From the NCBI GenBank assembly GCA_020429585.1, contig JAGQLE010000006.1:1-38303 (forward strand): a DNA stretch of 38,303 nt, written 5' to 3'. Below the pieces are notes generated by a model. The model ran no database searches. It saw only the letters and a program-made list of their open reading frames with translations, and was not told where the DNA came from. This document shows positions 17,017-37,542 of this stretch, piece after piece (positions within the stretch are counted from its first letter, which is position 1; each line of letters opens with the position of its first letter). This stretch comes from Candidatus Berkelbacteria bacterium (GTDB lineage Bacteria > Patescibacteriota > UBA1384 > JACPKC01). Made by a program: the position numbers and the translations under genes.

Positions 17017-17854
17017 GATGTAATGATTTTAGTTGATCTATATTTTTTTGGTCAGGACCCTTATGTTCGCCAAAACCTGGAACCTCTAAAATCCAGGGCA
17101 AATTAGTTAGCCTGGAATCATTTACCAGAAGCCTAAATCCTTCGTTGCCAATTTTACCTTCGCCAATATTTTCGTGGCGATCACGAGCCTCCCCTAAGCC
17201 AAATTTTGAATCATTTGAGTGGATAACAACCAAGTTTTCCAAACCGACTTTTTGATCAAACTCTCCAAGTGTTTCGTCGATGCCAGTCTTAGTTCGAAGA
17301 TCAAAGCCTGCAGCAAATAGATGACACATATCAAGACAAACTTTAACCCGATCAGAACTAGCGCCCTTTATCATTTGCCCAAGCTCATCAAAAGTAGATC
17401 CTAGTGCCCCACCCTGACCCGCCGCCCCTTCAACAATCAACTGACTTTTACCTGGCGCTCGTTTTAAGACCTCTTTCATGGTCTCAATTACTTGAGTCAT
17501 AGCTTCATCGTGATCTCGATCACGTTTGGAGCCGGTATGGTAAATCACACCTTGGATCCCAAGCCTGTCTGCCATTATCAAAGCATGAGCTAGAGCATCA
17601 ATTGACTTTTCTAAAAGCTCCTTATTGTCTGTTGCCAAATTCACAAGATACAAAGCATGAATAAAAACCGGTTTCAGACCATAAGTGTCAATCCCCTTGC
17701 TAAATTCTGCAATCTGCTCATCGGAATAAGTATTTTTCCGCCAAGTTCGAGGAGAGGTAATAAAAATCTGAAAACAATTTGCACCAATATCTAGCGCGCG
17801 CTGCACAGCCGTATCCACCCCGCCGGCCGCCGAAACATGACCCCCGATTTTCAT
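17009..17854 (-). CDS. nfo: Endonuclease IV (AP endonuclease)
   Basis: The 281-residue TIM-barrel enzyme starts KIGGHVSAAGGVDTAV. It carries the trinuclear zinc ligand motifs FIHALYLVNLA, VIYHTGS, LIVEGAAGQG, VCLDMCHLFAAGFD, VVIHSNDSKFGLG, DRHENIGEG and ILEVPGFG. It cleaves DNA at abasic sites. AGGAAG lies 6 bases before the ATG at 17854. The ATG overlaps the stop of a small ORF (ATGA), and the 3' end overlaps polX, making a base-excision-repair pair of AP endonuclease and gap-filling polymerase. Length matches the family (about 280). Confidence 0.97.
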   Translation of the reverse strand: MKIGGHVSAAGGVDTAVQRALDIGANCFQIFITSPRTWRKNTYSDEQIAEFSKGIDTYGLKPVFIHALYLVNLATDNKELLEKSIDALAHALIMADRLGIQGVIYHTGSKRDRDHDEAMTQVIETMKEVLKRAPGKSQLIVEGAAGQGGALGSTFDELGQMIKGASSDRVKVCLDMCHLFAAGFDLRTKTGIDETLGEFDQKVGLENLVVIHSNDSKFGLGEARDRHENIGEGKIGNEGFRLLVNDSRLTNLPWILEVPGFGEHKGPDQKNIDQLKSLHRD

Positions 17855-18045
17855 ACAAACTTCCTAAGGGCAAGATCTCTCCGTCCTGGTCGAGATGATA
17901 ACTCCAGATCATACCCAGTTAAAAATAAAGTACTTCGGATTGAGGGCTCAAATCCTTCAATAGCGCAAAACCTCTCAATATCGGACTTTGTCCGATTCAA
18001 TAGCAGTGTTCTTATAGACTTTGCCTGCTGTCTATTTATCATCAC
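17851..18045 (-). CDS. Small ORF of unknown function between the IMPase-like gene and nfo
   Basis: This 64-residue frame starts at GTG 18045 (or ATG 18042), one base after the IMPase-like stop, and its stop overlaps the nfo ATG as ATGA. It therefore fills the gap exactly, as coupled operon genes do here. The product is basic, with no membrane segment and no cysteine pair; a single Cys occurs in ERFCAIEGFEPSIRS. I recognise no family. The DNA contains a perfect palindromic stem (ATCGGAC-AAA-GTCCGAT, 17978-17994). It could be a real small protein, or a spacer that happens to be open. Confidence 0.42.
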   Translation of the reverse strand: MMINRQQAKSIRTLLLNRTKSDIERFCAIEGFEPSIRSTLFLTGYDLELSSRPGRRDLALRKFV

Positions 18046-18046
18046 C

Positions 18047-18820
18047 CTATTTCGAATTAATTATCTTTAATAGTTCGTTATGAAGATGACTGTTAGAAAC
18101 TAAGCCTGACTCAGTTTTTACCATCATCATCTTTGATTCAAGATCACTCATTGTTCCTCCGGCTTCATTAACAATTAGCTGAGCAGCGACCCAATCCCAA
18201 GGTTTAAAGCCGTGATGAATAAAAGCATCGTGAGTCCCCTGAGCGATTGCGCAAATCTCTAACGCTGGGCACTCACGGATCTTAATTTGGCGGACTTTAT
18301 CTAGTAACTTTTCAACCGTCTTGACGCTGGTAGCTCTAGTTTCACCGTGGCCGAAACTAGCCAAGATATATGCATCTTTAGCCTGCTTTGTCTCTCTTAC
18401 TTTAAGAGGGACATTATTGAGCTGGGCGCCACTATTTTTAACTGCCGAAAACAACTGACCACGAGAAGGATTACTAACAACACCTAAAATCGGTTCACCG
18501 TTTTCAATCCAAGCAACAGTAGTAGCGTAGTAGCTTTCGCCAGTACCGTAATTTTCGCCACCATTCAAGGAATCAATAAGCCAAAACTTTTTGACCTTAG
18601 GCAATTCGCCCATACCTTTACCCCAAATCGTATCTTCTGGGTAAACCTGACTCAAAAAGGTTAGCATCGACTCACGGCTTGCCCGATCGGCCTCGACAAC
18701 ACCTTTTTTCATGTCTTCGACTCGCCAATCACCATGAAAGTGACGCTTCAGCTCTTCACCAGAAATATACGAGGCTTGCTTAGCAACCTGCAATCTGACT
18801 TGATGGTCTTGTTTGGACAT
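18047..18820 (-). CDS. Inositol monophosphatase-like protein with altered metal site
   Basis: The 257-residue protein has the IMPase fold order: VVEADRASRESM (41-52, cf. 'vTeaD...E'), FWLIDSLNGGENYG (79-92, cf. 'W.iDPlDGT.nF'), GVVSNPSRGQLFSAV, and PWDWVAAQLIVNEAGG (197-212, cf. 'WD.aa...i..eAGG'). Several metal ligands are changed. The GEE motif after strand 2 reads IWGKG (65-69), the second Asp of DPxDGT is Asn86, and its Thr is Gly88. Asp83 and Asp199 are kept. Classic Mg2+-dependent phosphatase activity is therefore doubtful. The start ATG at 18820 has AGGAAAT before it. Its neighbours are the adk gene and the small ORF. It may be a pseudoenzyme or bind another substrate. Confidence 0.78.
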   Translation of the reverse strand: MSKQDHQVRLQVAKQASYISGEELKRHFHGDWRVEDMKKGVVEADRASRESMLTFLSQVYPEDTIWGKGMGELPKVKKFWLIDSLNGGENYGTGESYYATTVAWIENGEPILGVVSNPSRGQLFSAVKNSGAQLNNVPLKVRETKQAKDAYILASFGHGETRATSVKTVEKLLDKVRQIKIRECPALEICAIAQGTHDAFIHHGFKPWDWVAAQLIVNEAGGTMSDLESKMMMVKTESGLVSNSHLHNELLKIINSK

Positions 18821-18833
18821 AATTTCCTACTTT

Positions 18834-19480
18834 CTAAGATAAACGTTGTCGTCGTACCAAATGCAAATCATCAGGCAAATAATTTCTTGGTTCGGTTTCT
18901 GATAACTGCAACATGTTTAAAACATCCCCATTTACTTCATCAATAGAGTTATTTCCGTTAACAACCTTTAATCTTCCTTTCTTGATTAAGTTTTTTAACA
19001 ACCTTTTTGCGATGATCATGCCATGATTTTAGGCGATTAGCCAAGGCTTCTGTTTGATCGTCCAAAACGATTCGAATCAGCAGATCTAGCAATTATCCTA
19101 GAAAAACACTCGTTAATAGGCACGGACAGGTAAATAAAACTCGGTTCTAGCTGATCATTTTCTGCCAGCCAACTTTCAACTTTTTCAAGGTGCTCTATCA
19201 TACTCGGAAAACCATTAAAAATCACACTTTCGCCTTCTTGAATTAATTTTCTTGCTTGGTTCAGTACTATTTCTCCAATTGGCTCAGCTGGGGCCATTTG
19301 TCCTGATAGAGCGATCATTTTCGACTCGGATAAAATTTGGTAGCTATCATCGTCTGAGTTCACCGACTCCCTTAAAATCTGTCCGACATTTATCTGGGCA
19401 AAACCCAAGTGATCGCTCAGCAAATCAGCTTGAGTATCTTTACCACTACCCGCGTTCCCAAGAATAAAGATAACTTTCAT
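18834..19480 (-). CDS. adk: Adenylate kinase, reading frame broken by two +1 shifts
   Basis: From the ATG at 19480 the frame gives a P-loop (FILGNAGSGKDTQADLL) and NMP-domain features (IFNGFPSMIEHLEKVESWL), then stops at 19037 after only 147 residues. The adenylate kinase C-terminus continues in two other frames: first RLDDQTEALANRLKSWHDH, then LIKKGRLKVVNGNNSIDEV, ending with TAG at 18834. Removing one base from the run of four at 19064-19067 and one from the run of six at 18991-18996 (or the five at 19004-19008) restores a continuous protein of about 214 residues, the normal length. Adk is essential, so sequencing or assembly indels at homopolymers are the simplest explanation. The gene sits between the NYN nuclease and the IMPase-like gene. 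Confidence 0.88.
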
Positions 19481-20077
19481 TTAATTCTTTTTAGTTGAAC
19501 TCTGCGGATAAAATTTCACTACATCGTCGTTAGAAATTAAAATGTAACGGTCGGTGGTTTTGATTAAGCCTTGATTGGGACGATTACGAAACCCCATGTA
19601 AACCACGTCAGCTCCGAGCTCGTGCAATTGTTTTACCGCTGGCTGTAAATCCGAGTCAGAGGTAGCCAAAATTACTTTTCCTACTGAGTTTTTAAGCACA
19701 TCGACAACAGCATCGATTGCAATTTTGACATCTACTCCTTTTTCCACAAACCGCACCTCGCCTGATTTGACTTGAGCCCGAACAATTCCACTTAAAACAT
19801 ATTTAAACCCTTGCTGTTGCAAGTGTTCCTGAAGTTCTTGTTGACGAATCAAAAGCTCTTCTGATTTTTCCTTTGTTTCCTCATGAGGCAAAACCCTTGC
19901 ACCGTAGAAGGCAGCTAGGTCGACATTCTCTTTCTTAAATTTCTCGTTGAGCATTCCCCAAAAATCGAACTTGGTAATATCCGGATCTTTGATACCGCGC
20001 CTAACTAGGATTCCTCGAATCTTACTAATAAAGTTTTGTCCATCAATGTAAAGATGGGTTAGTTTTTGCCGTGACAT
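19481..20077 (-). CDS. NYN-domain (LabA/DUF88-type) putative ribonuclease
   Basis: The 198-residue protein has the PIN-like NYN fold: LYIDGQNF with the first acidic residue (about 9-16), VDLAAFYGARV, KGVDVKIAIDAVVDVL with the second Asp pair, ILATSDSDLQPAVKQLHELGADVVYMG with SDSD, and an RYILISNDDVV tail. All the expected acidic active-site residues are present, so it is probably an RNase or other RNA-processing enzyme. The substrate is unknown. Its start overlaps the secA 3' end by 19 bases and its stop abuts the adk ATG, giving a secA-NYN-adk transcription unit. Confidence 0.85.
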   Translation of the reverse strand: MSRQKLTHLYIDGQNFISKIRGILVRRGIKDPDITKFDFWGMLNEKFKKENVDLAAFYGARVLPHEETKEKSEELLIRQQELQEHLQQQGFKYVLSGIVRAQVKSGEVRFVEKGVDVKIAIDAVVDVLKNSVGKVILATSDSDLQPAVKQLHELGADVVYMGFRNRPNQGLIKTTDRYILISNDDVVKFYPQSSTKKN

Positions 20078-22740
20078 TTTTTAAATTTCTTTCCGCTTCC
20101 ACAAGGACAAAGATCGTTACGTCCAACTTTTCCATAAGGATTAAGGGATTGAGTCTGAGCAGCTGGCTCAACCATTGTTCGGCCGCCTGGACCCCTGACC
20201 GTCAACGCAACGCCGCTGTTTTTGACTGGCGATAAATCACGAACAACCTTTTCTGTAGCCATAGATTCTTTTTGAGCGACAACAGCTCGATCATCAGAAT
20301 CATCTTGCTTATTTGATTTTTCTGCCAGCTTAAAGCCGCCGCCCGCCAAACTTGAATCCGCCCCCTCAAGCTTTAGGTTTTGGTTTTGCTGCTGAATCTG
20401 ATCGGGTGCCGGCTCTCTAACCTCTAGCTTGAGCAACATTTCTACAACTTGGTTTTCAATATCGTCCTTGAGACGCTGAAAAATATCGAAGGCTGCTTCT
20501 TTGTATTCAATCAAGGGGTCCTTTTGTGCGTAACCTTTTAATCCAATTCCTTCCCTGAGGTGCTGCATTGTTGAAAGGTGTTGGACCCAGAGGGCATCAA
20601 CAGTACGTAAATAAACTAACCGCTCAACTTTTTTAAAGTTACTCTCTCCTACTTTCTCAACCTTGCTCTTAAATTCCGCCAGTTCATCTTCGTGAAGAAG
20701 TTCCTCAATTTCCTCGTGGAGCCAATTCTCCTTGGTTGGATTCAATTCCAAAATGCCTTTTCGCTTACGATAAACAACTTCCCGGTGTTGATTCATTACG
20801 TCATCGTATTCAACCAAATGCTTGCGAATATCAAAATTGTGCCCTTCAACTCTCTTTTGAGCCTGTTCAATCGAGTTACTAACTAGCTTGTGCTGAATTG
20901 GTTCGTCGTCGGGCAGACCAAGACGATCCATCATCGCCTTCAAGCGTTCGCCCCCGAAAACCCGCATTAAGTCATCTTCCATTGATACATAAAATCGAGA
21001 AATACCTGGATCTCCCTGGCGACCAGAACGGCCTCGTAACTGATTATCAATTCGGCGCGACTCATGACGCTCGGTTCCAAAAACTGCCAAGCCGCCTGCT
21101 TCAATTACCCTAGTGTGATTATCCTCCCAGGCCTTAAAGTCTTCTGAGCTATCGTCAGGACTTGGTTTTTTTCCACCAAGAACAATGTCAACGCCCCGTC
21201 CCGCCATATTAGTGGCGATAGTTACTCGCCCCGGCTCGCCGGCGTGTTCAATAATTCTAGCCTCGCGCTCATGCTGCTTAGCATTAAGGATGTCATGTTC
21301 AACCCCGACTTTTTTAAAAAATTGAGAAATTTGTTCAGATTTTTCAATTGAGACCGTTCCAATTAAAACAGGCTGCCCAGCTTTCGATCTTTCTTTAACT
21401 TCTTCGACAATCGATTTAAGCTTACCCTGTTCTGTTTTATAGATAACATCCGCTTCGTCAATTCGAGCCACTGGTCGGTTGGTCGGGATCTCAACAACAT
21501 CCAGCTCATAAATCTTGGCAAATTCCTCAGCCTCAGTGGCAGCCGTACCGGTCATACCAGCAAGCTTGTCATACATGCGAAAGAGATTCTGAAAAGTGAT
21601 TGTCGCCATAGTCCGTGATTCCTGCCTAATCTCGACTCCTTCTTTAGCCTCAATCGCCTGATGCAAACCCTCGGAATATCGACGGCCTGGCATCATTCGA
21701 CCAGTAAACTCATCGACAATAATCACCTCACCATCTTTAACAACGTATGCCTTATCCTTAATATAAAGAGCCTTGGCTTTTAAGGCTTCCTCTAGGTGAT
21801 GAACATACTGGACAGTCTTTTCCGAATAAATATTCTCTACACCTAAAACTTGCTCCATTTTTTTTATGCCGGGCTCGGATATTTTAACGTTCCGATCCTT
21901 CTCATCGACTTCGTAATCCTCACCCTCTTTTAGCTGTTTTACGAAATCAGCGAAATCACTGTATAAGGTGGCTGATTCGGCAGCTGGCGCCGAAATAATA
22001 AGCGGTGTACGAGCCTCATCTATTAAGATCGAGTCAACTTCGTCAATAATCGCATAACTTAGAGTTCGCTGAACAAGGCGATCAACGCTTAAAGCCATAT
22101 TGTCGCGTAAATAGTCAAAACCGAACTCGTTATTGGTGCCGTAAGTAATATCCGCAGCATACGCATCTTGTCGACCACAGCTAACTAAATTAGGCCAATC
22201 CGAATCGTCATTGGCTCCAGCAGAATCATATCTCCAACTAGCACCCTGCTGACCAATCACGGCTACAGACAAACCCAAAAAGTCGTAAAGTGGTCCATTC
22301 CAATTAGCTCCGACTTTAGCCAGGTAATCATTTGGGGTAACTAAGTGAGCGCCTCGACCAGCTAAGGAGTTCAAAATCAAAGGCAAGGTAGCAACCAAGG
22401 TCTTACCTTCGCCTGTTTTCATTTCGGCAATCTTTCCTTGATGCAAAACTATTCCACCAATTAATTGAACGTCAAAATGACGCATCCCCAAAACCCGCTT
22501 GCTCGCTTCGCGCACCAAGGCAAAAACCTCAGGTAATTTGCTATTGAGTTCAACTTCCAAAGACTGATTATCGAGTTCCTTAAATAACTTTTTAAAATCT
22601 GAAAATTTCTGCTTGATCTGTTGATCTTCTAATTTTTCGATATCGGATTCACGGTCGTTAATACTATCCACTATTGCTTTGAGCTTTTTTAATTCTTTAA
22701 CGTTCGTATCACCAAAAATTTTTTCTAAGAGATTTGCCAT
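20059..22740 (-). CDS. secA: Preprotein translocase motor SecA
   Basis: The 893-residue ATPase has Walker A MKTGEGKT (107-114), SYAIIDEVDSILIDEARTPLI with Walker B, the preprotein cross-linking region, TFQNLFRMYDKLAGMTGTA, TNMAGRGVDIVLGG, RHESRRIDNQLRGRSGRQGD and a C-terminal zinc finger RNDLCPCGSGKKFKKCHG. The zinc finger is intact (CxC...CH), so the protein can contact ribosomes or SecB-like partners. It drives post-translational export through SecYEG. Length is normal. A 64-base AT-rich gap precedes it, with a candidate -10 TACAAT. Confidence 0.98.
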   Translation of the reverse strand: MANLLEKIFGDTNVKELKKLKAIVDSINDRESDIEKLEDQQIKQKFSDFKKLFKELDNQSLEVELNSKLPEVFALVREASKRVLGMRHFDVQLIGGIVLHQGKIAEMKTGEGKTLVATLPLILNSLAGRGAHLVTPNDYLAKVGANWNGPLYDFLGLSVAVIGQQGASWRYDSAGANDDSDWPNLVSCGRQDAYAADITYGTNNEFGFDYLRDNMALSVDRLVQRTLSYAIIDEVDSILIDEARTPLIISAPAAESATLYSDFADFVKQLKEGEDYEVDEKDRNVKISEPGIKKMEQVLGVENIYSEKTVQYVHHLEEALKAKALYIKDKAYVVKDGEVIIVDEFTGRMMPGRRYSEGLHQAIEAKEGVEIRQESRTMATITFQNLFRMYDKLAGMTGTAATEAEEFAKIYELDVVEIPTNRPVARIDEADVIYKTEQGKLKSIVEEVKERSKAGQPVLIGTVSIEKSEQISQFFKKVGVEHDILNAKQHEREARIIEHAGEPGRVTIATNMAGRGVDIVLGGKKPSPDDSSEDFKAWEDNHTRVIEAGGLAVFGTERHESRRIDNQLRGRSGRQGDPGISRFYVSMEDDLMRVFGGERLKAMMDRLGLPDDEPIQHKLVSNSIEQAQKRVEGHNFDIRKHLVEYDDVMNQHREVVYRKRKGILELNPTKENWLHEEIEELLHEDELAEFKSKVEKVGESNFKKVERLVYLRTVDALWVQHLSTMQHLREGIGLKGYAQKDPLIEYKEAAFDIFQRLKDDIENQVVEMLLKLEVREPAPDQIQQQNQNLKLEGADSSLAGGGFKLAEKSNKQDDSDDRAVVAQKESMATEKVVRDLSPVKNSGVALTVRGPGGRTMVEPAAQTQSLNPYGKVGRNDLCPCGSGKKFKKCHGKN

Positions 22741-24449: not shown

Positions 24450-25050
24450 GGATATACCTTTCTATGGCTGGCCGCAACTTCCTGAGGGCATGACCATTAT
24501 GGTTAGCTTGATCATACTCCAAATCGGTTAGATCAAGAAAGTATTTATGAAATTTGGGTAACCACCAAAAGCGGCGATAGGGAAAGCCTGGCTGCGCAAG
24601 CGGATGCAACTCGAGGGTAATATCGCCACTAAGCACACCCCGACCGACTACTGGCTGGCGACCAAGTTCAACGAAAGCAAAAACAGTATGAAATTCGAAT
24701 TTTCTTTCTTTGGAGCCAAGGGTGCGAATCTTATTCTTAAATATCTCTATTACTTCTTCATCCGTATGTTCTACTTGGGTGTCGAAACGCCTGCTTCTCA
24801 CTCCTGGCCAACCGCCAAGTGCAGGCACGACCATTCCACCATCAGCCGCAAGAGTCGCCATCTGTGTCGCACGAGAGATTTCTACCGCCTTTTTAACCGC
24901 ATTACCCTCGAAATCAGGCCGATTCTCATCTACTTCTATATTAGGCGCGATATCACAGAGATTTAACCAATCGATCGATAAGTCACCTAAAAATCTTTTA
25001 ACCTCTAAAATCTTGCCTTGATTAGTACTCCCAATCAAAACTTGCTTCAT
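24442..25050 (-). CDS. RdgB/HAM1-like nucleoside triphosphate pyrophosphatase, divergent
   Basis: The 202-residue protein begins with the family motif IGSTNQGKILEVKRFL (6-21, cf. 'atgN.gK..E...l') and has NAVKKAVEISRAT (cf. 'NA..KA..aa'). The LAADGGMVVPALGGWPGVRSRRF stretch (67-89) matches 'aDDSGL.v.aL.G.PGvySaRf'. The DDSGL is ADGGM, so only one of the two acidic residues remains, and the C-terminal 'SHR..A' motif appears as NGHALRK. House-cleaning activity on ITP/XTP is plausible but not certain. It overlaps lysS by ATGA and serS by 8 bases. Confidence 0.75.
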   Translation of the reverse strand: MKQVLIGSTNQGKILEVKRFLGDLSIDWLNLCDIAPNIEVDENRPDFEGNAVKKAVEISRATQMATLAADGGMVVPALGGWPGVRSRRFDTQVEHTDEEVIEIFKNKIRTLGSKERKFEFHTVFAFVELGRQPVVGRGVLSGDITLELHPLAQPGFPYRRFWWLPKFHKYFLDLTDLEYDQANHNGHALRKLRPAIERYIHD

Positions 25051-26660
25051 CGCCCTGCTTCTTGAAGGCGCTTAATAACAAAATTCCGGTCAAGGTTGGC
25101 CAGAAACCACCCCGCCTGAGGTCCAGATTCTCTGTTCAGAAAAATCCGATACAACGCCTCAAATGCTAATTTGGGTTCAATAGCCATCGATTTTCTCACT
25201 ACATGAATTTCTTCATGAACTCGTAGGCCATCCCAACTATCTAAGACTGAAAAAGACGCAGCCAACGCAGTTAAAAACTCTTTCTGATTAGCGTTTAGAC
25301 TAATATTCACTGGCAAGATTTTCTGTAAAACAATGCGCTCATCTGATGGAAGCTCGCTAATAAGTTTTTTAGCAACCTCAATCCTTTGTTCTAATTCGCT
25401 CAGTTCGATTTCGCTTAAAGGCGCGCCTTTATCTTTGATCAAAGTTGCTTTTAAATCGATATTCGGCAACTGTAACAAATAAATCAAAGATGACATTTTT
25501 GGAACAAAATCAGGCGCCTTTTTATCGATCATACTTAATTGAAAAGCTTTCCCCTCAGCGCTAGTTGGGTCTTCGTGAAACTTCTTTAAATATTGGTCGA
25601 ACTGATCATAGAGCCTGAGAGTTGACTCTAACGACAACTTAAAGCTAAAAGCTGTTTTAGGCTTAGTCCTCACTAATAGAAATCGCAAAGCATTTGCCGG
25701 CAGTAATCCGGCTACCGAAAAAGCCGTATCACCCAAACCCTTCGACGTTGCCATCTTTCGGCCTTCGATTAGCAGCCATTCATAAAATAGATCCGTCGGC
25801 ACTCGAGCGTACTGACTGTCAAGATGTGGCGCATAAACTGATCTAAAAATCTCATTTGCCACATCTCTTGAACCGCCCTTAGTGTAATGATCTTTACCGC
25901 CACCTTCCAAATCGGTTTTAAACAAAAAAAACTTAGCCGCCCACTCTACCTTCCAGGGTAATTTAGCCCCGCCGTTATAAGGCGATGCTTTGCCTTTGTG
26001 ACTACAACCGGGAGCAAAATTTACACCTATGCATTGATAACCAACTACTTCACCATCCCAATCTGTTGCTTCGGTCGTTGCGATCTTATGGCAATTTTCA
26101 CAAACTATATTTATTGGAAAATGTTTAAATGGAATAACTTCGCGACCTTCGGTCCGATTAGTATTTATTTTCTTAAAAACCGCTTTAATATCCTCGGCCT
26201 GATTAAGAGCTATTTTAATAGCCAGATTCAAAAAACCGTCTCTGTAGAGTACAGATGTGCGTAGGGTTTCCGATTGAACACCAAGACCTCTGTAAACCGA
26301 CTCAAATTGATCAGCAAAAAATCGGCCGTAGTTACTCTCTTCTGTTGCCTCCAGCCCAGGTCGACCTTGCTCGTCCGGGGCGGGAATTGTCGAAAATGAT
26401 TGGCCTAAATACCGTTCGTAATCCGAGGATAGGTAGTTAGGTAATTTATCCATTGAGTCATAGTCGTCAAAACCGTATATGTATCTAACCTGTTTACCTA
26501 GAGAGCTAATTGTTTTGGCGATTGCGTCATGAAGCAAAACTCCCCGCAAGGCACCTACGTGAATATGTCCAGATGGGGTTTTCCAATCAGAAACCACATA
26601 TGGTTCGGCATGACGATCCAATACAGTCTGAGCTAGTTCTTCTGCCCAAAACTTATTCAT
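25047..26660 (-). CDS. lysS: Class I lysyl-tRNA synthetase
   Basis: The protein has 537 residues from the ATG at 26660, with TAGGATA just upstream and 4 bases after the greA stop; a longer frame inside greA is not used. It is a class I (archaeal-type) LysRS: PSGHIHVGALRG (29-40, HIGH motif), YIYGFDDYDSMDKLP (60-74), zinc-type cysteines CENC (187-190) with a C...CSH pair at 210-221, GGGKDHYTKGGSRDVA (253-268) and RKMATSKG (301-308, KMSKS motif). It is not the usual bacterial class II enzyme. Class I LysRS is found in archaea, spirochaetes, alpha-proteobacteria and many CPR bacteria. Confidence 0.95.
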   Translation of the reverse strand: MNKFWAEELAQTVLDRHAEPYVVSDWKTPSGHIHVGALRGVLLHDAIAKTISSLGKQVRYIYGFDDYDSMDKLPNYLSSDYERYLGQSFSTIPAPDEQGRPGLEATEESNYGRFFADQFESVYRGLGVQSETLRTSVLYRDGFLNLAIKIALNQAEDIKAVFKKINTNRTEGREVIPFKHFPINIVCENCHKIATTEATDWDGEVVGYQCIGVNFAPGCSHKGKASPYNGGAKLPWKVEWAAKFFLFKTDLEGGGKDHYTKGGSRDVANEIFRSVYAPHLDSQYARVPTDLFYEWLLIEGRKMATSKGLGDTAFSVAGLLPANALRFLLVRTKPKTAFSFKLSLESTLRLYDQFDQYLKKFHEDPTSAEGKAFQLSMIDKKAPDFVPKMSSLIYLLQLPNIDLKATLIKDKGAPLSEIELSELEQRIEVAKKLISELPSDERIVLQKILPVNISLNANQKEFLTALAASFSVLDSWDGLRVHEEIHVVRKSMAIEPKLAFEALYRIFLNRESGPQAGWFLANLDRNFVIKRLQEAGR

Positions 26661-26664
26661 TATC

Positions 26665-27129
26665 CTATTTAACGGCCTCGATTTTATATTTGACGATCCC
26701 GCCTGGGGTTTTAACTTCCACAACTTCACCCTTGCGACGACCAATTAAACTAGAACCGACTGGCGACTCAGACGAAATTTTTCCCTGAGTTGGATCGCCT
26801 TCGTTAACGCCAACGATTTCGAAATTAATTTTCTTTCCAGCAACAGTCAAATCGATTTTACTGCCCATCTGTACAGTATCGCCGCCAGTTTTAACATTGA
26901 CAACCTGGGCATTTTTAATCATCGCTTCCACTTCTTGAATTCGACCCTCTAAAAATGCAAGTTGCTCTCGCGCATCATGATAGTCAGCATTCTCAGAAAG
27001 ATCACCAAGTTCTCGAGCTTCCGCCATTCTTTTAACAATTGCTGGTCGATCAACTGTCTTTAACTTTTTAAGTTCCTCCTCCAGCTTCTTAAAGCCTTCA
27101 GGAGTAACTTCATGTTTATGCTTGTTCAT
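26665..27129 (-). CDS. greA: Transcription elongation factor GreA
   Basis: The 154-residue protein has the family layout. The N-terminal coiled coil contains VTPEGFKKLEEELKKLKTVDRPAI and the tip acidic residues in ARELGDLSENADYHDAREQ, which reach into the RNA polymerase channel. A C-terminal FKBP-like domain has VQMGSKIDL, ISSESPVGSSLIGRRKGEVVEV and GGIVKYKIEAV. It rescues backtracked polymerase by stimulating transcript cleavage. It is the first gene of the greA-lysS-rdgB-serS-hpf operon, with AAAGGA seven bases before ATG and a strong promoter. Confidence 0.97.
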   Translation of the reverse strand: MNKHKHEVTPEGFKKLEEELKKLKTVDRPAIVKRMAEARELGDLSENADYHDAREQLAFLEGRIQEVEAMIKNAQVVNVKTGGDTVQMGSKIDLTVAGKKINFEIVGVNEGDPTQGKISSESPVGSSLIGRRKGEVVEVKTPGGIVKYKIEAVK

Positions 27130-35739: not shown

Positions 35740-37542
35740 CTAATCTTCAACAATTGCTTTAATACGTCTGATTCCCGCCCCGGCTGACTGCTCCTTAATA
35801 ATCTTCAATTTCCCGATTTCGTTAGTATTGGAAACATGAGGACCGCCACAGAATTCCTTGGAGGGCGCATCACTAATACTATCTCCTAAATAATGGACCT
35901 TTACCTTGTCCGGATATTTATGATCAAAAAAATGGAGAGCGCCGGTCTTCTTAGCTTCGACCAAGCTTAGTTCTACGCAGTTCATCGGCAGGCCTTGCTC
36001 TATAAGCTTATTAGCCCAAGCCTCGACTTCAGCCTTCTGCTCGGCTGTCAACTTGTCAGGATAATTAAAATCAAATCTAAGTCGATCAGCATTAATATCA
36101 GAACCTTTTTGAGTTATCTGGTCTCCCAAAACCGCCCGCAAAGAGGCTTGCAAAATATGAGTAGCGGTATGGAGCCTTAAAACCTTTTTAAGCTCGGTCT
36201 CGTCGCTCGCTTTAAGTTCACCTGTATCAAGGATCAAACCGTGACCGCCGAACTTCTTTTCGCTCCCGGCTCGAGAAACTTCCTGATGAGCTTTGATCTT
36301 TTGGTCAAGTGCCTGCTCAAAACTCTTCCTACCCAAAACAAGGCCGGCCTCAGTTAAAATTTCGTATCCCAGTTCAAGAGGTAAGGCATGACTCTGGTAG
36401 GCCAAAAAGGCGAGGTTGGCTGCTGACTCATCATTAACAACTTGGTTGGCCTGAACTGCTTTTTCAATAAAATTAACGGCTTTGGTTAACTGTTTTGTGA
36501 ATTTCTGCTGCTCGGCCAATATCTCTGCCTCGATTTCCTGTTCTAACAGCTGAGGATAATACGGACCGTAAACACCTAAAATCGCCTCTGTCAAAAGTGG
36601 CCAATCTGTAAAATCTAATTTGCGAGCAGCTTGAACAGCTCGACGAATTAAACGGCGCAATACATAACCCCTGTCCTTATTGGAAGGTAAAACTCCGTCA
36701 GCAATCATAAAAAAAGCTGCTCTAATATGATCGGCTAAAATTCTAACGTCCCGGTCGGCATGAGCAAGTTGGTCGGTTGAAATAGCGGCAACGATTGGGG
36801 CCAAGACATCGGTTTGATAGACACTGTCGTAGTTATTTACGGTCATCAAAACCCGCTCCAAACCCACTCCCGTATCTATATTTTTCTGATCCAACGGCTC
36901 GAACTGCCCATCCTCAGTTTTATTAAATTCCATAAAAACGTTATTCCAAATTTCCACCCAGCGTTCATCATTACCAGGCAAAGAATTTGGCGGGATTTCC
37001 GCCTCGGCTGACCAAACGAATATTTCGGTCGTCGGACCACACGGACCGCTACTATGCACTGGCCCCCACCAATTATCTTCAACTAGCTCGTCAATCCGCT
37101 CCATACCCAAACTCTGCCACCTTTGCTTGGCTTCCTCATCTAAGCCAACGCCTCGCAACTTATCACCGGCGAATACAGTTACGGCTAGTTTTTCTTTAGG
37201 AATTCCCAATTCTTCGGTAACAAATTTATAGCTCCAGTCAATTGCTTCGTGCTTAAAATAATCTCCGAGCGACCAGTGGCCAAGCATTTCAAAAAACGTA
37301 TTATGGGTAGCATCACCCACTTCTTCGATGTCACCTGTCCGCAAGCAACGCTGAATATTAACCAATCGACTCCCGTCAGGATGGGTATCGCCCATCAAAA
37401 ACGGAATTAGTGGATGCATGCCAGCCGTCGTAAATAAGACCGAAGCATCTTGTTGCGGCACTAACGCTGCTTGACCTATTTCTTGATGGCCTTGCTTCTT
37501 ATAAAACTCAATAAATTTTTTTCTCAACTCATGATGGTTCAT
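35740..37542 (-). CDS. alaS: Alanyl-tRNA synthetase, short CPR-type
   Basis: The 600-residue class II synthetase has the catalytic domain (LFTTAGMHPLIPFLMG, QRCLRTGDIEEVGDATHNTFFEMLGHWSLGDYF in the family layout, GPCGPTTEIF, TGVGLERVLM), the tRNA-binding helical domain and an editing domain. The editing domain keeps its zinc ligands in HTATH (458-462) and CGGPH (565-569). The protein ends at SAGAGIRRIKAIVED, so the C-terminal oligomerisation/C-Ala region of the usual ~870-residue enzyme is absent, as in many CPR bacteria. The ATG at 37542 overlaps the lytic transglycosylase stop as ATGA. Confidence 0.96.
   Translation of the reverse strand: MNHHELRKKFIEFYKKQGHQEIGQAALVPQQDASVLFTTAGMHPLIPFLMGDTHPDGSRLVNIQRCLRTGDIEEVGDATHNTFFEMLGHWSLGDYFKHEAIDWSYKFVTEELGIPKEKLAVTVFAGDKLRGVGLDEEAKQRWQSLGMERIDELVEDNWWGPVHSSGPCGPTTEIFVWSAEAEIPPNSLPGNDERWVEIWNNVFMEFNKTEDGQFEPLDQKNIDTGVGLERVLMTVNNYDSVYQTDVLAPIVAAISTDQLAHADRDVRILADHIRAAFFMIADGVLPSNKDRGYVLRRLIRRAVQAARKLDFTDWPLLTEAILGVYGPYYPQLLEQEIEAEILAEQQKFTKQLTKAVNFIEKAVQANQVVNDESAANLAFLAYQSHALPLELGYEILTEAGLVLGRKSFEQALDQKIKAHQEVSRAGSEKKFGGHGLILDTGELKASDETELKKVLRLHTATHILQASLRAVLGDQITQKGSDINADRLRFDFNYPDKLTAEQKAEVEAWANKLIEQGLPMNCVELSLVEAKKTGALHFFDHKYPDKVKVHYLGDSISDAPSKEFCGGPHVSNTNEIGKLKIIKEQSAGAGIRRIKAIVED

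Follow-up and report, generated by a model that had tools for sequence, protein, structure and literature searches.

The stretch of DNA analyzed here (the window, 38,303 nucleotides of a Candidatus Berkelbacteria contig) carries an adenylate-kinase-like gene on its minus strand, at 19480 to 18834, whose protein is spread over three reading frames by two +1 shifts, each amounting to one extra base. The gene is set within a secA-NYN-IMPase-nfo gene cluster. Directly upstream is the gene for a NYN-domain protein (19481 to 20077, minus strand; PF01936, 55.6 bits), whose stop codon directly abuts the first base of the ATG at 19480. Directly downstream is an inositol-monophosphatase (IMPase)-family gene (18047 to 18820, minus strand), which is the NYN gene’s neighbor in a genome of the same family (G001). 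Elsewhere in the window are the genes for a lysyl-tRNA synthetase (25047 to 26744), which matches the archaeal-type model TIGR00467, and an alanyl-tRNA synthetase (35740 to 37542) of the short, 600-aa form (NF002436, PRK01584).

Frame 0 opens with the ATG at 19480 and runs for 147 codons to a stop at 19037 (19037 to 19480, minus strand). This segment contains the P-loop GNAGSGKDTQ followed by ILR, NGFPS, RIIAR, and NR. The +1 frame continues the protein with LDDQTEALANRLKSWHDHRKKVVKK... at 18953 to 19063 (minus strand; LDDQTEALANRLKSWHDHRKKVV...) and carries LDDQTEALANRLKSWHDHRKKVVKKLNQERKIKGC; it supplies the invariant residues D140, D141, and R149 and has its own stop at about 18958. The +2 frame (18834 to 18990, minus strand; LIKKGRLKVVNGNNSIDEVNGDVL...) provides the C-terminal strand and helix of the ADK fold and runs to the stop at 18834. 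The shifted-frame segments include LDDQTEALANR and VVNGNNSIDEVNGDVL, and the three frames joined give 214 residues. No further stop was found within any of the three segments, and invariant residues are kept on both sides of shift 1.

The frame-0 codon for R138 and the frame +1 codon for D140 flank shift 1 and place it within a few bases of 19067 to 19060. The site (19059 to 19067, minus strand) reads CGT TTT GGA C, with a T run at 19064 to 19067 between the two codons. Shift 2 could be localized only to about 19008 to 18978 (minus strand), where runs of five (19004 to 19008), six (18991 to 18996), and three (18978 to 18980) bases are the candidates. Per-frame coding potential, calculated with a codon-position model trained on the genome, favored frame 0 down to about 19061, frame +1 from there to about 18971, and frame +2 beyond. 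These data confirm the original prediction of an adenylate kinase split into three frames by two +1 shifts. The region proposed for shift 1, 19064 to 19067, holds, but for shift 2 the run of six is one possibility among others, as the run of three fits too.

The identity of the joined protein was examined with an ADK profile built from 75 other ADKs, with the window gene left out. The score rose from 104.2 bits for frame 0 to 133.7 bits with one shift and 158.9 bits with both, while read-throughs with shuffled tails (n = 500) gave a mean of 104.3 and a maximum of 114.3 bits. The three-frame match is far above chance. In a phmmer search of the PDB, residues 2 to 188 of the joined protein aligned with adenylate kinase 1. 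The read-through keeps the P-loop and LID catalytic residues (G13, K14, T16, R128, R132, R138, D140, D141, and R149), and the joined frames align to adenylate kinase through the LID and C terminus, as the proposed reconstruction required. Both the 147-aa open reading frame (ORF; 48.8 bits) and the read-through (63.2 bits) passed the Pfam ADK (PF00406) gathering cutoff of 26.8 bits, and the ORF also passed that of AAA_17. The NCBIfam adk equivalog/subfamily cutoff of 168 was not reached (best, 63.7 bits with the 147-aa ORF); an intact adk on contig C52, described below, likewise fell below the NCBIfam adk cutoffs, so this test carries little weight.

Two features set the window gene apart from its family. 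The protein does not lie in a single uninterrupted frame, and the AMP-binding motif reads NGFPSMIEH (NGFPSxxxH) for the family’s DGFPRxxxQ, which corresponds to the substitutions D89N, R93S, and Q97H at AMP-site positions that are conserved in the other sequences. Thus, of the P-loop and NMP domain that had both been described as good, the P-loop is intact, but the description does not fully hold for the NMP domain.

Two ADK loci are present in the genome that contains the window (G000; 790,076 bases in 55 contigs, 99.12% complete). The second, at C52:14049-14507, is an open adk of 195 codons that scored 93.7 bits and lies in the order secY, an unassigned 323-aa ORF, adk, map, infA. The 323-aa ORF (L001 1989 to 2960) had no NCBIfam match, and the rest of the order is standard. 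In our tree, the C52 adk clustered with the adk genes of both same-family genomes (support, 100/97). With an intact adk beside map and infA, the essential role does not fall to the window gene: the C52 gene is the normal copy that fills it, and the window gene is a separate, extra one. Looking for a second adk, which had been put forward as a check, proved decisive. It removes the argument that error is the default on the grounds that adk is essential, and nucleotide scavenging, raised as the consequence of a real break, is not needed in a genome with an intact adenylate kinase. As the window gene is an extra, lineage-specific paralog, real decay, originally offered as a mere alternative, becomes the likelier cause.

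Other nucleoside monophosphate (NMP) kinase genes in this genome are those for guanylate kinase, an amino-acid-kinase-type protein (a UMP kinase candidate), and the thymidylate kinase family. Two thymidylate-kinase-family genes were seen in each of G000, G001, and G002, and cytidylate kinase (PF02224) was not found in any of the three. A role for the window gene in replacing the missing CMP kinase was considered and is not needed in the family, as G001 has neither cmk nor a second adk.

We compared the locus with those of relatives. In G001, the NYN and IMPase genes adjoin without an adk, and an nfo-like gene is next; in G002, also of the same family, an unrelated ORF lies between the two (239 aa and cyclase-like by eye). 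The NYN-IMPase gap is therefore variable in content within the family: empty, filled by the 239-aa ORF, or filled by the ADK-like gene. G001 and G002 each have one full ADK, with one additional subthreshold partial match in G002. Searches of 61 relatives and of 380 genomes from the phylum yielded no ortholog of the window ADK (best, 33% identity). A search of genome contigs with the ADK-like protein gave no match, and the same search with the NYN alignment returned one Candidatus Berkelbacteria record only. A phage origin was not supported; scans of viral contigs gave no relative, and phage matches were distant (~30% identity). In the 76-row tree, the window ADK has the longest branch (end branch, 2.12 versus a median of 0.48), and its placement is unsupported. 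From these comparisons, the window gene is best described as a highly divergent, fast-evolving, lineage-specific accessory ADK paralog, and one that appears dispensable by comparison with relatives.

We put at about two in three the probability that the window gene is a recent pseudogene, i.e., a recently inactivated accessory adenylate kinase paralog. In our model, the lineage would have carried an extra short-LID ADK gene in the secA-NYN-IMPase-nfo cluster while the C52 housekeeping adk did the essential work. The extra copy would have drifted first, giving the altered AMP-binding motif and the long branch. Two single-base insertions roughly 60 to 90 bases apart would then have entered the LID and C-terminal region and left a 147-aa remnant without the LID residues D140, D141, and R149 and the C-terminal strand. 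This remnant is probably inactive, as judged from its sequence. We infer that the insertions are real, that they were recent and came in this order, and that activity was lost with them. The pattern observed is the one expected if a dispensable copy decays, and the redundancy that characterizes such pseudogenes is present in the form of the intact adk elsewhere in the genome. Since there are no further stops and invariant residues are kept on both sides of shift 1, the decay must be very recent. From mutation spectra, it is not unlikely that a gene this size would acquire a second indel ahead of any nonsense mutation. Against decay, the clean segments are the same pattern expected from local error.

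The main alternative, which we regard as possible but considerably less probable, is that the accessory paralog is intact, with the living gene encoding one 214-aa protein, and that two local errors arose in sequencing or assembly. Coding signal and family-invariant residues persist in all three segments, short A/T runs can accommodate both shift sites, and the assembly is a draft of 55 contigs. However, no other broken gene was seen in the 38-kb window despite 716 homopolymer runs of at least 4 bases in the remaining genes, 257 of at least 5, 67 of at least 6, and 19 of at least 7, with no visible frame break. NCBIfam models matched 18 of the 20 other window genes tested, nearly all across most of the model; the SecA match was split into two stretches, and no match at the strict cutoff used was obtained for two short proteins. 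Two random run errors would fall within 80 bases of each other with P = 0.004 and both in the window ADK with P = 0.0006, values that assume independence and would not apply if the errors clustered at a low-coverage spot. The number of contigs and the small size of some (2 to 4 kb) suggest a short-read assembly. Homopolymer errors are rare in such assemblies. It also weighs against error that the two shifts share a single gene, the one that appears dispensable, and that, with the second adk intact, essentiality no longer argues for it.

The analysis also covered 12 further contigs and 20 kb of C52. For the detection of other frameshifts, both a coding-potential path search and a junction test were unspecific, with ordinary overlapping gene junctions scoring like real shifts, and the junction test missed the shifts of the window ADK. 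Among the strict calls, L101:7647 proved to be a normal 4-base gene overlap, and L108:5342 was a membrane-protein-like ORF (L108 5342 to 5509, contig C55) in which coding signal extends past the first ATG/GTG/TTG on the upstream side with no usual start codon, reflecting either an unusual start or another small frameshift.

We think it very unlikely that the 147-aa product functions as a P-loop protein in some new role. The ORF is open, with an intact P-loop and scores above the Pfam ADK and AAA_17 cutoffs, but D140, D141, R149, and the C-terminal strand, all conserved in comparators, are missing from it, and the lost part is still encoded in the other frames, so the truncation is recent.

A functional recoded gene, in which two +1 ribosomal frameshifts or transcriptional slippage would restore the full protein, appears more improbable still. 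The frames downstream of both sites stay clean, and frameshifting that offsets indels is known in small genomes (PMC5009743). Recoding would, however, require two separate +1 events in one gene. Inspection of 19067 to 19059 and 19008 to 18978 revealed no recognizable stimulators of programmed frameshifting, and neither a stop codon nor a Shine-Dalgarno-like stimulator was seen at site 1. RNA structure downstream of the shift sites was not unusual (fold z, −0.87 and −1.08), and an Rfam scan of 17500 to 20500 found no RNA element. Transcriptional slippage climbs exponentially with run length and is rare in short runs, and most of the errors that transcription makes in runs add bases (PMC5574713); the runs here are of 3 to 6 bases, and each site would need the loss of a base. 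Among the 61 relatives and 380 phylum genomes, there was also no ortholog in which conservation of the shift sites could be seen. Programmed recoding of the window ADK has no support. Least probable of all is a living enzyme that is produced by two +1 recoding events and phosphorylates NMPs with altered specificity; CMP is one example, suggested by the failure to find a cytidylate kinase in G000, G001, or G002.

Whether through decay or error, this is an ordinary case, and a false alarm is removed: adenylate kinase is present, and the broken frame is explained without nucleotide scavenging or recoding. On a small scale, the locus illustrates how a reduced genome can carry an accessory kinase and then, apparently, lose it. 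It also shows why a search of the genome for a second copy should precede any verdict that an essential gene is broken.

Taken together, the window gene shares with ADK proteins (PF00406; short-LID type, e.g., adenylate kinase 1 and UMP-CMP kinase) the P-loop GxxGSGK.T, R37, R128, R132, R138, D140, D141, R149, and a C-terminal NG..SIDEV, with alignment over residues 2 to 195. Unlike them, it has two +1 shifts, NGFPSxxxH, and NCBIfam scores below cutoff, and it is not the main adk of its genome. It resembles recently frameshifted bacterial pseudogenes in gene redundancy, clustered small indels, and recognizable remnant frames, with no standout difference from them. A tandem second adk was observed in other Patescibacteria families (L072, L074, L075, L080, L081, L083, L090, L092, and L094), with a divergent P-loop (such as GDPAAGKATHG), the AMP motif NGTPKM..EAK, and a clade of its own, and is possibly a distinct NMP kinase. 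Grouping of the window ADK with these copies had weak support (87/59). Like the window gene, they are divergent extra ADKs beside an intact one, with an altered AMP motif (e.g., NGTPK); they adjoin the main adk and are open, whereas the window gene lies in another gene cluster.
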